Shown here one piece after another: positions 41,049 through 48,484 of a stretch of DNA of 64,000 bases. Numbering within the stretch: the first letter of the stretch is position 1; each line of letters begins with the position of its first letter. The translations under genes and the position numbers were made by a program. Location of the stretch: NCBI GenBank assembly GCA_958295735.1, contig OY282369.1:2952983-3016982 (forward strand). Direction: 5' to 3'. A model generated the notes under the pieces. The model was not told the DNA's origin, made no database searches, and saw only the letters and a program-made list of their open reading frames with translations. Origin of the DNA: an uncultured Candidatus Cenarchaeum sp. GTDB taxonomy: Archaea > Thermoproteota > Nitrososphaeria > Nitrososphaerales > Nitrosopumilaceae.

Positions 41049-42033
41049 GATGCCGGGGGCGCGGATCCGGGGGGCGGGCCCGCGGATGCCGGCGGCGCCG
41101 GGACGGGCGGCCGGCGGGCCGCCCGCTCGCCGGCAGCCGGCCGCCGGGGCGTCCGCGGCTCCGGACGGGGGGCGATGCGCGGCAGGCCGGGGGATGCGGC
41201 CGCGGCTCCGGACGGGGGGCGATGCGCGGCAGGCCGGGGGATGCGGCCGCGCCGCGCGCCGGCAGCGCCGGAGGGCCGGCGCGGCGAGCCCTGCGCCGTC
41301 ACGCCCGCCGGGAGGAAAGGGAAGGCCGCCGCGGGCTGGCGCCGCGCCGGCCGGACGGGGCGGAGTCGGGGCCCGCGCATCGGCGATCCCCTTCCCCCGG
41401 GCTGCCGCTCCCGCGGGCAGCCCCGCCGCGTCCCGGCGCCGTCCCGCCCGTCACGCGCGCGGGCGCGGCGGCGGGCCCGGGAGGGAAGGCCCCGCGGAGC
41501 CGTGACTCCGCGCGCGGTCGCCGCGGCCGTTCTTTCCCCGCGGACGCGGGGGCGCCGCGGACGCGGGGGCGAACCGGCGCGGCAAGGATCGGCGGGCGGC
41601 CGCGCGGAAAAGGCGGGCGCGGCCGGCGCCGGACCGATGCCGGTTTTTCGGCCCCCGCGCCCCGCGGGGCGGCGCGCGCGCCGGGGGGAGAAAGCGCCGC
41701 ACGGGGGGTCGCGGGGGGCCGCGCGCCCGCCGGCCGCGGTCGCCAAAACGGCTCTTGATCCGGGCCCGCGCCCGAGGAGCCGGGGCTGCCGGCCCCGTGC
41801 CGCCAGGAATGCGAGGCCGCGCGCGCGCCGGCCGCGGGCGCGAAAGCGCCTTCGCTGACCGGATCCGCGCCCGCGGGGCGGGGGCTGCCGGCGCGGCCGA
41901 GGCCAGCGGGGCGGCCGGCGTGCTCGGGGATCGGATTCGCGCCCGCGGGGCGGGGGCTGCCGGCCCCGTGCGCCAAGAACGGGCGGTTGTTTAAACACCG
42001 CCGCGGCGCAGCGCGCGCGCGGGCGGGGCGGCC
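41049..42033. other. Gene-free GC-rich interval with tandem repeats
   Basis: No credible gene. A 47-bp unit starting CGCGGCTCCGGACGGGGGGC is present twice in tandem (41154-41247). Three diverged copies of a segment around GCCCGCGGGGCGGGGGCTGCCGGC occur at about 41765-41800, 41867-41900 and 41938-41970. The last leads into the TATA box of the first paralogue (TGTTTAAACACC, about 41987-41998). Confidence 0.6.
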
Positions 42034-42363
42034 GTTGACGAGTCCGACGCCGCGCGGCTGATCTGGCGGTACGAGTACAACCGGGAGGAGACGCTGCGGG
42101 TGCTCGGCCACGCGGAGCCGGACAACACCATACACGCGGCAGAGTACGACTTTGCGAAGTGGCGCGGGATCCCGCGGGAGACGACGCGCGCCGTCCTGGA
42201 GGACTGTGCCAGGAACCCGGAAAAGTGCGGGGAACTGCTGAAAAAGCACGAGGGCGGGAGGATCCGCTTCCCGGAGGGCGGGCCGCACAAGCATGGCGAC
42301 CTCACGGCCGCCATGGACAGGCTCAACCGCGCGACGGGCGCGGCGCGCCGCGGCGGCCCGTAG
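42034..42363 (+). pseudogene. Unknown-family paralogue 1, start codon lost
   Basis: The frame from 42034 reads VDESDAARLIWRYEYNREETLRV and continues through YDFAKWRGIPRETTRAVLED to LTAAMDRLNRATG. It is clearly the same family as 42717, 47429 and 47929. Its promoter motif (TTTAAA at about 41990) is in place, but where the others have GTG about 25 nt later only GCG codons are found, consistent with a T to C change of the start. A GTG inside the frame (42100) would remove the first 20 or so family residues. It is best read as a recent pseudogene. Confidence 0.65.
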
Positions 42364-42560: not shown

Positions 42561-42687
42561 CCGGGAACGCGGCCGGCGGGCCGGCGGGCCGGCCGGTTTC
42601 CCCGCCGGTTCCCCGCCGGTTCCCGCGGGCCGGCATTTCTTGCCGCGCGGACGGGGGCCGGCGGCCTTGCGCGCCGCGGGGCCGCCG

Positions 42688-42695
42688 CTTAAATG
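42688..42695 (+). promoter_or_regulatory. TATA box of paralogue 2
   Basis: CTTAAATG lies 22-29 nt before the GTG start. The same box and spacing recur at 47903-47910 before paralogue 4 and, as TTTAAATA, before paralogue 3, so the family keeps its promoter with its gene. Confidence 0.6.
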
Positions 42696-42716
42696 CGGCC
42701 GCGGCGCGGCGCGCTC

Positions 42717-43040
42717 GTGAGCGTAGACGAGTCCGACGCCGTGTTGCTGATCTGGCGGTACCAGAAGCATCTGAGGCAGACGCTGCGCGTGATCGACGAT
42801 GCGGATCCGAACGACGTCATACACATGGTGGAGTACGACTTTGCGAAGTGGCGCGAGATCCCGCGGGAGACGACGCGCGCCGTCCTGGAGGACTACCTCG
42901 AGGACCCGAAAAAGTACGAGGAACTGCTGGCAAGTCGCGAAAGCGGGAGGATCCGCGCCCCGGAGGGCGAGCCGTACAAGCCGGGCGACCTCACGGCGGC
43001 CGCGGACAGGCTCATACGCACCACTGGCGGTCGCGGCTGA
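42717..43040 (+). CDS. Unknown-family paralogue 2
   Basis: A 107-residue acidic protein of no family known to me. It is all-helical by appearance: VDESDAVLLIWRYQKHLRQTLRV, then DDADPNDVIHMVEYDFAKW, the invariant core REIPRETTRAVLEDYLEDP, KKYEELLASRESGRI, and a C-terminal helix DLTAAADRLIRTTGG. It has no membrane segment or cysteine motif. The GTG at 42717 follows its TATA box at leaderless spacing. At least six related loci lie between 42034 and 48610, three of them intact and well conserved, which implies selection on the protein. It might be a DNA-binding or protein-binding adaptor, but nothing in the sequence shows its role. Confidence 0.75.
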   Translation: MSVDESDAVLLIWRYQKHLRQTLRVIDDADPNDVIHMVEYDFAKWREIPRETTRAVLEDYLEDPKKYEELLASRESGRIRAPEGEPYKPGDLTAAADRLIRTTGGRG

Positions 43041-43254
43041 CGCGGCGCGGCACGCCGGCCCGCGGCGCGGCATCTTTCCCGCCGCCGCATCAAGGCTCCC
43101 GGGGGCCTGCTTCGCGGTAGGCCCCGCGGCGCCCGGGCTCCTGCAAGGCCGAGGCGCGGGCGGGCCGGCCGGCGGGAGGGCGGCCACAACCGGCGCCCGC
43201 CGGTTTCCAGCCGGCCCCGCGCGCCGCGGAATCGTTGCCCAAATGCCTCCTCGG

Positions 43255-44869: not shown

Positions 44870-46193
44870 CGGCGCGGTCGGCCCTTCCCGCGGCCGCGCC
44901 CGAAAGCCGCCGGCCCGTGGCAGATCGCCGCGCCGGCGACTTTTCTCGGCGGCGCGGGCGAAAAGCGCCGCCGGCCCCCGCGGCCGCGGGAAGCGCGGCG
45001 GGGTTGCCGCGCGGGGCGCCCTCCCGGCTCGTCAAGCCCGCACCCGCCCGCAGCAGGGCGGCGCGCCCGCGTCACGGGCCGCCTCCGAAGCGCGCCGCCG
45101 ACCCGGACGCAACGAGTCAGGCCACGTCCGGCGGGCCGGGCCCGGCTGGTGCGCCCAAGCCACCAGCATCCGGACCGGCGCAACCGCCCGGCTTCGGCAA
45201 CGACAGCCGCCGGCCGTCCGCGGCGGGACCTGGCGGATGCGCCGAGGCGGCGCCGGTCCGCATCCGGCGCCGGATCGGCGGGCGGGGGAGGGCGACCGCG
45301 CGTCGAAAGATCCCGAATCCGCCGGGGATCGCGCGGCGCGCGGGCCAGGCGTGACGGCCGGGAGACGCGGCGAGCGGCGCGAAAGGGAGGAAAGGAGGCA
45401 GGTCCGCACCGCCGGGAGCACAAAGCCGGCAACCCCCGCCCCGCAGGCGCGAACCGGGATCAACGAATGCGCTTTCACTCCCGTGGCTGGCGAGTGCGCG
45501 GCCCCGTACCGCCCGGATCGGTTAACGCAAAAGTGGCGGAATCCGCCGCCGGGGCCGGCCGCGAAGTTCGACGGGCGGACAGCCAAAAGATGCATGTGGG
45601 ATGGTCCCCGGGGGCCTTTCAGCCGCCACGAAAAAAAAAAAAAGCCGCCCCGGACGCGCCAGAACAGAGCCCCGCCAATACGAGCGAACCGCCGACACGG
45701 TCGTCGGGGGCGCGGGCGCCGGCAAGTTCTCGGACGCCCCCGACGCGCCGCGCAGGCCGAGCAACATGGCCGGGCGCGCCCCGGATGCGGCCGCGGGCGG
45801 GGCGGCCGCGGGCGAGGGGGCGGGCGGGAGGCGCCGGCGGGGGCCCGCGCGGCCGGCGCCGTCCCGCCGTCGGGCGGGGGGCCGCGCCGGGCGGGGGCCC
45901 GCGCGGCGCCGGACGGGACGGCGGGGGCGCCGCGCGGGTTCGGCGGCGCCGCGGGGGGATCGGGGAAAAGGCGGGCCGGGGGATCGACTTCCACGGGATG
46001 CGCCGCCGCGACGAAAAGCCGGGCCCCTGGCCCGCGCGCGGCGGCCACGGGAAGCCAAAGTCCGAGGCATTCTGCAAGGCGCACTGCGCCGCACGGCGCC
46101 CCGCGGGCGGCCAGTGACCCACCATACGCATGCGGCCGCGCGGGGGCCGCGCGCGCCCGAACCGCGCCCGCGCGGGGGGGGGGGTGCTGACCC
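44870..46193. other. Gene-free interval, possible eroded sequence
   Basis: No recognisable gene in 1.3 kb. The middle part (about 45440-45730) is less GC-rich than its surroundings and includes a run of 13 A at 45631-45643, so it may be an eroded gene or insertion. Open frames on both strands are Arg/Gly/Ala-rich and unlike any family I know. Confidence 0.5.
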
Positions 46194-47389
46194 CATACCC
46201 TGAGGGAGTGCGTGTGGTCCCAAAACCAGCATGTGCCCCCCCACGGGGGGCGATCCGGACGGGAGGGGAAAGCGGAGCGGGAGCGAAGGCGCGCGGGTCT
46301 GATCCGCGCGAGGGGCGGCGGAAGCGGGCGGGCGGCGCGCCCGCGCCACGGGAAAGCTTGGCGATTTTTAGGCGGAATGGACTGTCAGGCAAAGGCGGAA
46401 GGGGTACACGGCCAACGCCCGGATCGCGGAGACCGCGGGAGCGTCCGAGATGCGGGCCCGAAAGCTCCGGGCAAAACACCGGCACTCCGGTCCCGGCCGC
46501 CCGGCGTTTCGTCCCCCCGGCAGGCCGGCAGGCGGGCCGCGCGGGCGCGGGGAGCACTGCGATACTCGGCGCACGCCAGGGATGCAGGCGCGGGGCCGGG
46601 CGCCCGGAGGCCGACATTGGGCGCCTTGCCGGAATCCATATTCCGCACAACACCATACGCGGGGCAATGCGGGAGGAGAACCCGGCCGCGGCGCGCCGCA
46701 AAAAGGGCAGGCGGCACAAGCGGGTCCGGCACGAGGGGGACTGCCAGAACCCCGCGCGGCGCGCCGATTCCGAGCAGCTTTGCGGCGGGAGGCGGCCGGT
46801 TTCGCACGCGGGCGGCGCATCCCGGTTCATGGCGGGCTTTGGCGCGTTCCCTGGCGCCGCCGCGGAAAGCGCGCCGGAGGCGCCCGGGCGGGCCGTCGCG
46901 GATCGCGGCAGGCCCCCCTCGATCCTCCCCGGCCGCGGCCCGCGGTTCTGCCACGGCGGGTCCGCGGGAAAGAAGCGCGGCTCGCCCGGGTTCGGGGCGG
47001 GGCCGGCGGCCCCGGGCATCGGGCGGATCCCGCGCGGGGCGGGGCGCCCGCGGGCGGGCGGCAAGCCCGGGAGGTCCCGCGGCGGGGTGCGGCGGTGGCT
47101 GCCCACGTTCGCGGCGGAGTCCGCCGGGAGGACCGCCAAGCGGGGCAGTCCGGGCGGCCGCGCGGGCGACGTCTTCCACGCGGCGGGAAGGCGCGATCCG
47201 ACGACGGGGCTCGTCGACTGGCACTGCAGCGATCGCGCCCGCGAATCCCCGGACCCAGAGTCCGCGGAGGCTCCCGCCGTGGCGTTTGCCCGCAAGATGC
47301 CCGCGGCCGTGGGAGCGGGGGCGGGCAAGGGGGGAGAATCAGGCGCGTGGGGGGCATACTGATTTTGGGACTCCGCATACCCTGAGGGA
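46194..47389 (+). mobile_element. Relic IS481-like insertion sequence with ends and target duplication
   Basis: The direct repeat CATACCCTGAGGGA flanks the element at 46194-46207 and 47376-47389. Just inside lie matching inverted ends, GTCCCAAAACCAGCATG (46217-46233) and the complement of 47355-47371 (GTCCCAAAATCAGTATG), 15 of 17 identical and extending into a C run. The interior (1.17 kb) is the length of an IS481-type element and carries one transposase frame on the plus strand. The duplicated site shows that the element truly inserted here. Confidence 0.75.
46590..47320 (+). pseudogene. Eroded IS481/rve-type transposase, frame still open
   Basis: Phrases recall an integrase core in the right order: HIPHNTIRGAMREENP, RRKKGRRHKRVRHE, ASRFMAGFGAF, GRPPSILP, RFCHGGSAGKKRG, LPTFA, TGLVDWH and PAVAFARKMP. 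Positions that should carry catalytic aspartates are changed (for example GASRF and ILPGRGPRF where D-A-S-R-F and L-T-D-x-G are usual). Substitutions mostly exchange A/T-rich codons for Gly, Ala, Arg and Pro codons. Because stop codons are A/T-rich, this drift leaves the frame open from 46130 to 47362 although the enzyme is clearly dead. The family call is by motif recall. Confidence 0.65.
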
Positions 47390-47428: not shown

Positions 47429-47761
47429 GTGAACGCAACGGGCGTAGACGAGTCCGACGCCGTATTGCTGATCTGGCGGTACCAGAAGCATCTGAGGCAG
47501 ACGCTGCGCGTGATCGACGATGCGGATCCGAACGACATCATACACATGGTGGAGTACGACTTTGCGAAGTGGCGCGAGATCCCGCGGGAGACGACGCGCG
47601 CCGTCCTGGAGGACTACCTCGAGGACCCGGAAAAGTACGAGGAACTGCTGGCAAGTCGCGAAAGCGGGAGGATCCGCGCCCCGGAGGGCGGGCCGCACAA
47701 GCACGGCGACCTCACGGCCGCCATGGACAAGCTCAACCGCACGACGGGCGGGCGCGGCTGA
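47429..47761 (+). CDS. Unknown-family paralogue 3
   Basis: 110 residues starting MNATGVDESDAVLLIWRYQK from a GTG at 47429, about 25 nt after TTTAAATA (47400-47407). It is almost identical to paralogue 2 through the core IHMVEYDFAKWREIPRETTRA and ends AAMDKLNRTTGGRG. It differs from paralogue 2 mainly in the C-terminal third (GGPHKHGDL for EPYKPGDL). The promoter begins immediately after the right-hand target duplication of the IS481-like relic. Its 494-bp unit, including the 3' flank, is duplicated as paralogue 4. Function unknown. Confidence 0.75.
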   Translation: MNATGVDESDAVLLIWRYQKHLRQTLRVIDDADPNDIIHMVEYDFAKWREIPRETTRAVLEDYLEDPEKYEELLASRESGRIRAPEGGPHKHGDLTAAMDKLNRTTGGRG

Positions 47762-47928
47762 CGCGGCGCTTTTCCGCCCGCCGCGCCGGGGCTCCCGGCA
47801 GGGGCCGTTCCCCGGGAGGCGCGGGGGGGGGGGCGCCGTTCCCGCGGGCAAGCATTCCCTGCCGCGCGGCCGGGGCTGCCGGCTTCGCGCCGCGGGGCCG
47901 CCGCTTAAATGCGGCCGCGGCGCGGCGC

Positions 47929-48255
47929 GTGAACGCGGTAGACGAGTCCGGCGCCGTGCTGCCGATCCGGCTGTACCAGAAGCATCCGAGGCAGACGCTG
48001 CGCGTGATCGACGATGCGGATCCGAACGACATCATACACATGGTGGAGTACGACTTTGCGAAGTGGCGCGAGATCCCGCGGGAGACGACGCGCGCCGTCC
48101 TGGAGGACTACCTCGAGGACCCGGAAAAGTACGAGGAACTGCTGGCAAGTCGCGAAAGCGGGAGGATCCGCGCCCAGGAGGGCGGGCCGCACAAGCACGG
48201 CGACCTCGCGGCGATCGTGGACAAGCTCAACCGCACGACGGGCGGGCGCGGCTGA
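47929..48255 (+). CDS. Unknown-family paralogue 4
   Basis: 108 residues from a GTG at 47929, which lies about 20 nt after CTTAAATG (47903-47910). The first helix is diverged (ESGAVLPIRLYQKHPRQ against ESDAVLLIWRYQKHLRQ), but the core from DDADPNDIIHMVEYDFAK to ASRESGRI is identical to paralogue 3. Changes of Leu to Pro and Trp to Arg in the first helix are T to C transitions and may be early decay. It is a tandem copy (494-bp offset) of the preceding gene, with the same downstream sequence up to about 48375. Confidence 0.65.
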   Translation: MNAVDESGAVLPIRLYQKHPRQTLRVIDDADPNDIIHMVEYDFAKWREIPRETTRAVLEDYLEDPEKYEELLASRESGRIRAQEGGPHKHGDLAAIVDKLNRTTGGRG

Positions 48256-48484
48256 CGCGGCGCTTTTCCGCCCGCCGCGCCGGGGCTCCCGGCGGGGGCC
48301 GTTCCCCGGGAGGCGCGGGGGCGCGCGCCGTTCCCGCGGGCAAGCATTCCCTGCCGCGCGGCCGGGGCTGCCGCCCGAACGCGGCCGCGGCGCCGCGCCG
48401 CCGATCCGGCGGTCCGGGACGCCCGGAGGGAGGCGCGGGGGACGATCGCCGCGGGGCCGGGGGCCGCGGCGGGCGCGGCGCCGG

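Follow-up and report, generated by a model that had tools for sequence, protein, structure and literature searches.

Probable GC-ward, transition-specific decay of a dead IS481-like element in a GC-rich archaeon of the Nitrosopumilaceae

In the GC-rich genome of an uncultured Candidatus Cenarchaeum species, we found what is very probably a dead insertion sequence (IS) that has decayed toward GC and has done so specifically by transitions. The window, i.e. the whole stretch of DNA analyzed, comprises 64 kb at 2952983-3016982 of one 3,166,131-bp contig (genome G000), and the IS481-family element occupies 1169 bp of it (46209-47377), with TG as its first and CA as its last letters. Judged by its sequence, this copy is a dead IS derivative, the ancestral frame of which is broken by a frameshift and a TAG codon. 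The features of the locus, in window coordinates, are the following.

46209-47377, plus strand: dead IS481-family copy, TG...CA, 1169 bp (ends, flanking duplication, tblastn to the relative L017, 78% identical copy L002)
46196-46207, no strand: left target-site duplication, TACCCTGAGGGA
47378-47389, no strand: right target-site duplication, TACCCTGAGGGA
46217-46245, plus strand: left inverted end (local alignment with the right end)
47346-47371, minus strand: right inverted end (local alignment with the left end)
46369-46371, plus strand: in-frame TAG within the helix-turn-helix frame
46378-46467, plus strand: N-terminal helix-turn-helix remnant in its own frame (tblastn, L017 residues 9-38, E 2e-5)
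46558-46559, plus strand: 2-nt gap, owing to which the two halves differ in frame (seen in the alignment to L017 and L002; tblastn frame change)
46553-47302, plus strand: decayed integrase-core (rve) remnant (tblastn, L017 residues 69-316, 38% identity, E 6e-39)
46766-46768, plus strand: first catalytic D, kept (GAT; profile alignment)
46931-46933, plus strand: position of the second catalytic D, now Gly (GGC; profile alignment)
47069-47071, plus strand: position of the catalytic E, now Gly (GGG; profile alignment)
46130-47362, plus strand: 410-aa ORF, an artefact of composition in which a non-ancestral frame runs on into the decayed integrase frame

The initial annotation had described a genuine IS481-like element with ends and a target duplication, and this description was borne out by a pair of 14-mers, by the inverted ends and by homology to L017 and L002. 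The window contains exactly two occurrences of the 14-mer CATACCCTGAGGGA, at 46194-46207 and 47376-47389, where 0.02 were expected, and none of 100 shuffles contained two. Since the CA in the right-hand 14-mer is part of the IS end and not of the duplication, the true duplication is TACCCTGAGGGA, 12 bp exact with one additional mismatched base (12-13 bp). The inverted ends are imperfect; their local alignment score of 18 was equalled by none of 2000 random pairs drawn from the element. Directly to the right of the element lies a 110-aa ORF with a weak, sub-threshold match to the Pfam family Imm1 (E 0.009), the DNA of which is repeated several times at 76-95% identity (window 47429-47761, 47905-48396, 42614-43048 and 41987-42347).

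A tblastn search of the window with the intact in-genome relative L017 gave a 250-residue alignment with 38% identity (E 6e-39), in addition to the helix-turn-helix match at E 2e-5. Two other copies are found elsewhere in the genome, L002 (78% DNA identity over 1084 bp) and L003 (83% over 340 bp). In L002 the rve domain still scores above the Pfam cut-off, and IS481 is its best NCBIfam family, with a score under the cut-off. The window element's own frames matched no Pfam family (0/4 frames), its integrase half matched no NCBIfam family, and a search with its DNA in 40 relatives gave no match beyond its own genome. Relatives with a full catalytic triad are present in the same genome (L009/L010, L013-L016 and L017), and they share TG...CA ends with terminal inverted repeats with the window element; target duplications of 14-15 bp were read by eye for L010 and L013. 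The best NCBIfam family of L010, L017, L013 and L018 was IS481 (1.9e-55 to 1.4e-30). As the intact relatives score 168-188 bits and the curated cut-off of NCBIfam IS481 (NF033577) is 224, they are divergent members of the family. In a GTDB scan, 48 related transposase loci came from Nitrosopumilaceae and other archaeal metagenome-assembled genomes, with one record labelled as a bacterium. Target duplications of the IS481 family are reported as 2-15 bp, and the archaeal members ISMac4 and ISA0963-1 have 15-bp duplications, according to the part of the source considered (PMC10045372). The intact relatives have in common with the family an integrase-core transposase with a helix-turn-helix, and the elements here also share TG...CA ends and a duplication of 12-15 bp, within that range; the window copy differs in being dead, with neither the complete catalytic triad nor the single intact transposase frame of an active member. 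On these homologies, the window element descends from an IS481-like transposase.

The loss of the catalytic positions, also claimed in the initial annotation, was confirmed only in part: Gly has replaced the second D as well as the E, but the first D has been kept, so that the triad reads DGG and two of three catalytic residues are lost. We found no intact relatives carrying the same changed residues. Among 48 external relatives scanned, 39 had all three triad positions read, of which 32 were DDE and none DGG; the scan patterns included the first D, and its conservation in this set is therefore partly a product of how the set was selected. The further claim that the element keeps a full open frame did not hold. 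With L017 as the query, the helix-turn-helix homology lies in frame 2, which contains the TAG, and the integrase homology in frame 3, with the 2-nt gap between them; the open frame thus differs from the ancestral one. Nor does the 410-aa ORF keep to the ancestral frame throughout, and its start, at 46130, is outside the element.

Such an ORF can be produced by composition alone. In dinucleotide shuffles of the element the longest stop-free run averaged 336 codons, which makes ORF length uninformative at this locus and supports the warning, given at the outset, against trusting ORF length in this genome. The element itself contains 7 stops in six frames, as compared to a mean of 17 in the shuffles (95% 11-23), a deficit that probably reflects its coding past. 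The idea that GC-ward decay masks pseudogenes as ORFs was likewise supported, both by the counted excess of A:T to G:C changes and by simulation: at 13% divergence, GC-ward decay left 0.9 stops per 306 codons, versus 4.4 with an illustrative AT-biased spectrum.

To count these changes, the branch leading to the window copy was polarised by L002 together with one or more outgroups (W denotes A or T, and S denotes G or C). The excess of A:T to G:C changes that had been proposed was found, with W>S transitions at 57/215 sites and S>W transitions at 10/648, whereas transversions numbered 1 W>S versus 4 S>W. On the L002 branch transitions were 20/176 W>S versus 10/655 S>W and transversions 0 versus 11; the L003 fragment showed little GC-ward excess (12/62 W>S versus 13/272 S>W). 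At codon positions 1, 2 and 3, the W>S changes of the window branch amounted to 20/61, 36/84 and 2/8, and the divergence between the window copy and L002 was 0.18, 0.26 and 0.07. The NG86 dN/dS of this pair was 3.2 (0.242/0.076), and codon positions 1 and 2 were not protected.

A functional or domesticated protein, changed under positive selection, could be read from this ratio, from the long open frame, and from the lack of any indel between the window copy and L002 across 229 codons, which would be surprising if both copies were neutral. We regard this reading as highly improbable. The ancestral frame is broken by the TAG and the frameshift, no family was matched, and divergence peaks at codon position 2. 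Moreover, the dead copies L032-L041 of a sister IS481 family (family A) also have dN/dS of 1.05-2.6, so that such values follow from a GC content of third positions near 0.9. With third positions already about 90-95% G/C, GC-ward drift hits nonsynonymous sites and mimics positive selection; the value of 3.2 is thus an artefact of saturated third positions.

Family A comprises, besides L029, 12 further long copies with identities from 99% down to about 80%. Scoring used the 1080 sites that have the same letter in L029, L030 and L031, and ten older copies were pooled. Their transitions were 531/3169 W>S versus 123/6449 S>W, a ratio of 8.8:1, whereas their transversions were AT-ward (23 W>S versus 82 S>W); the contrast between transitions and transversions was strong (Fisher odds 15, P 1e-32). 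In the six copies that we classified post hoc as GC-ward, as opposed to four others, transversions were 11 W>S versus 45 S>W. A non-reversible 12-rate model described family A better than GTR (lnL -5378 versus -5426; AIC 10828 versus 10916). The ratio varies strongly among the old copies (chi2 114, P 2e-20): several reach ratios of 8-80:1, and L036 and L041 have low ratios of 1.8 and 2.4. The chromosome of 70% GC also contains AT-rich islands of 35-50% GC (L093, L095, L100, L105 and others of the sample), some of which adjoin dead copies with a weak GC-ward bias; copies in such a position may have been brought in by foreign DNA.

The transition specificity of family A is evidence against ordinary gene conversion, or selection for GC, acting alone. 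According to this alternative, mutation is ordinary and any A/T to G/C change is fixed by GC-biased gene conversion or by selection in favor of a high GC content. Both forces should affect transversions as well, but these run AT-ward in the very same copies. On the other hand, higher ratios tend to go with GC-richer flanks (Spearman 0.67, n=10), a strong bias is missing in the youngest copies, as expected of a sieve acting over time, and GC4 of conserved coding stretches is 0.98, which exceeds the GC of dead DNA. Codon selection may therefore act too, and conversion limited to T.G mismatches may be involved; as the whole explanation, we consider conversion or selection improbable.

Another repeat, 2.1 kb in length (L211-L240; e.g. 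G000:C1:115737-117870), has about 18 near-identical full-length copies with inverted ends of roughly 68 bp, and old copies of about 81% GC, the identity of which is 75-78%. Of the copies examined, the three oldest had 167-192 W>S versus 16-27 S>W transitions, counted against the young majority state and thus unpolarised. Their transversions (17-23 versus 13-23) were per site GC-ward, unlike those of family A, and this repeat, being less clean, adds nothing to the argument from transition specificity. L231 and L232 showed no clear GC-ward excess (56-57 W>S versus 45 S>W transitions, unpolarised). In the youngest copies of the repeat we counted 4 W>S versus 5 S>W events, a ratio of about 2:1 on 9 events, and in the youngest copies of family B 12 versus 9 events, also about 2:1 on 21 events, with changes common to two family B copies counted twice because events were tallied per copy. 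These youngest copies reject a constant ratio of 21:1 (P 0.0012 and 7e-6).

That the youngest copies stand at about 2:1 and several old ones at much higher ratios could indicate a past epoch, or an episode in which repeats were the target of hypermutation (through a RIP-like process or a mutator phase), rather than a present genome-wide regime. Against this, the intermediate copy L031, which is only 7% diverged, already shows 11/279 W>S versus 3/583 S>W, and the sequence context of the changes is also seen in low-periodicity DNA at large, which places the process outside repeats as well. We hold such an epoch or hypermutation to be unlikely, although it deserves more weight than conversion or selection.

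The context in question is a preference of A>G changes for an A that has a pyrimidine on its 5ʹ side and G or C on its 3ʹ side (5ʹ-YAS). For YAS versus RAW, the A>G values were 0.57/0.03 in the window element, 0.39/0.05 in the six GC-ward copies of family A, 0.23/0.03 in the other four, and 0.62/0.16 in the 2.1-kb repeat, from which L231, L232 and the young set were left out; the young set, with its 4 events, gave no sign of a context effect. In the low-periodicity DNA of the sampled stretches, A occupied 52% of the A-or-G positions flanked as R_W and 16% of those flanked as Y_S. In G001, the one genome of the same genus (2,045,086 bp), the same flank comparison revealed no purine/pyrimidine effect.

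The genome sample, consisting of 20 stretches of 20 kb and the window, had a mean GC of 0.69. Its least periodic 300-bp windows were widely spread, with a median GC of 0.72, an upper quartile of 0.80 and a 90th percentile of 0.83. In G001, GC was 0.58 overall, 0.55 in the least periodic windows and 0.80 for the GC4 of conserved coding stretches; G003, of the same family, has 0.35 overall. Within the window, the first 29 kb have 58% GC due to the uniform composition of a giant CRISPR array (1036-28998), which consists of 391 repeats of 36 nt, 390 of them identical, and 390 spacers of 33-39 nt (376 distinct, GC 0.61).

The window element is thus very probably a dead IS481-family copy that, once inserted in this GC-rich genome, was no longer maintained and decayed neutrally, mostly by A:T>G:C transitions. 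Such changes shift codons toward Gly, Ala, Arg and Pro and do away with A/T-rich stops, and every frame therefore tends to be open despite the broken ancestral frame. The descent, the ends, the broken frame, the lost residues, the direction, transition specificity and context of the changes and the unprotected codon positions are shown by the data; the cause is an inference. The putative cause is that transition errors of replication go uncorrected, or that T.G mismatches are resolved toward C.G. On balance we slightly favor a mutational process of some kind over selection or ordinary GC-biased gene conversion. The absence of post-replicative mismatch repair is a tentative candidate for the main factor of such a process, and one to which, taken by itself, we give less than even weight.

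Profile searches of this genome gave no match for MutS (PF00488) or NucS (PF01939). NucS is missing in 21 of 25 genomes of the family, including low-GC ones such as G003; since most relatives likewise do without it, its absence may be permissive but is not sufficient, and its loss was rejected as a specific cause. The loss of Endonuclease V was dismissed on similar grounds, as it is missing in 21 of 25 same-family genomes, this one included. Loss of AlkA does not apply, because an AlkA-like HhH-GPD protein is present (L189; the AlkA label is a reading of the sequence). The N-terminal domain of OGG1 (PF07934) had no match here and is present in 34 of 41 genomes searched; its loss would explain AT-ward G>T transversions and not GC-ward transitions, and the AT-ward G>T/C>A transversions are in keeping with the undetected OGG1. 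As the source of A>G changes, an expansion of adenosine deaminases (PF00383) was also discarded. There are 13 matches here, whereas of the other 24 genomes of the family 23 have one match and the last has two, but the extra copies look like anti-phage dCTP deaminase, the direct effect of which would be AT-ward. The twelve extra proteins (L199-L210) are alike in sequence; all three that were scanned match the PADLOC dCTPase, and one of these also matches the NCBIfam anti-phage dCTP deaminase, under the cut-off.

Streptomyces has a GC content of 72%. Corrected by us for this content, the counts reported for a Streptomyces delta-nucS strain give an A:T>G:C bias of about 4:1 (PMC11109965), and the rates of a Pseudomonas mismatch-repair-deficient mutator give 1.8:1 (PMC4702332). 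In the parts of these sources considered, the spectra are transition-dominated with A:T>G:C as the commonest change, as in the old copies here. The youngest copies (2.0 on 9 events and 2.2 on 21 events) lie inside the published range, whereas the old copies exceed it, with 8.8:1 when pooled and above 20:1 in some.

GC-ward decay is the reverse of the usual A/T-ward drift. For bacteria, an AT bias of mutation has been described as universal, in the part of that work considered here (PMC2936535), likewise on the basis of little-constrained sequence; in the present archaeon, transitions go the opposite way and transversions are still AT-ward. A universal AT bias of mutation would leave high GC to selection or gene conversion, and the contrast between transitions and transversions in dead elements separates mutation from these two. 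Seven of 11 sponge symbionts, including a Cenarchaeum-like one, have 47-67% GC (PMC7848895), and elevated GC is noted in shallow-water or several sponge symbionts (PMC7848895, PMC9289680). The parts of these two papers on sponge-associated Thaumarchaeota that we examined deal with GC content and lifestyle, and contain no substitution spectrum or mutational explanation. In the open literature, the scope of which leaves out most subscription journals and bioRxiv, no title or opening abstract described GC-ward IS decay in Thaumarchaeota.

Taken together, it is a possibility to which we give not quite even weight that in this archaeal lineage a transition-specific mutational process with the YAS context has pushed unconstrained DNA past 80% GC, that graded dead transposons record this process, and that standard tools mistake the dead genes for long, positively selected ORFs. 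In the sampled stretches, some of the low-periodicity DNA stands at 80% GC or more, versus 69% overall. In practice, neither ORF length nor a dN/dS above 1 is evidence of a gene in such genomes, and the process could render the GC enrichment of sponge-associated Thaumarchaeota, so far unexplained, testable.
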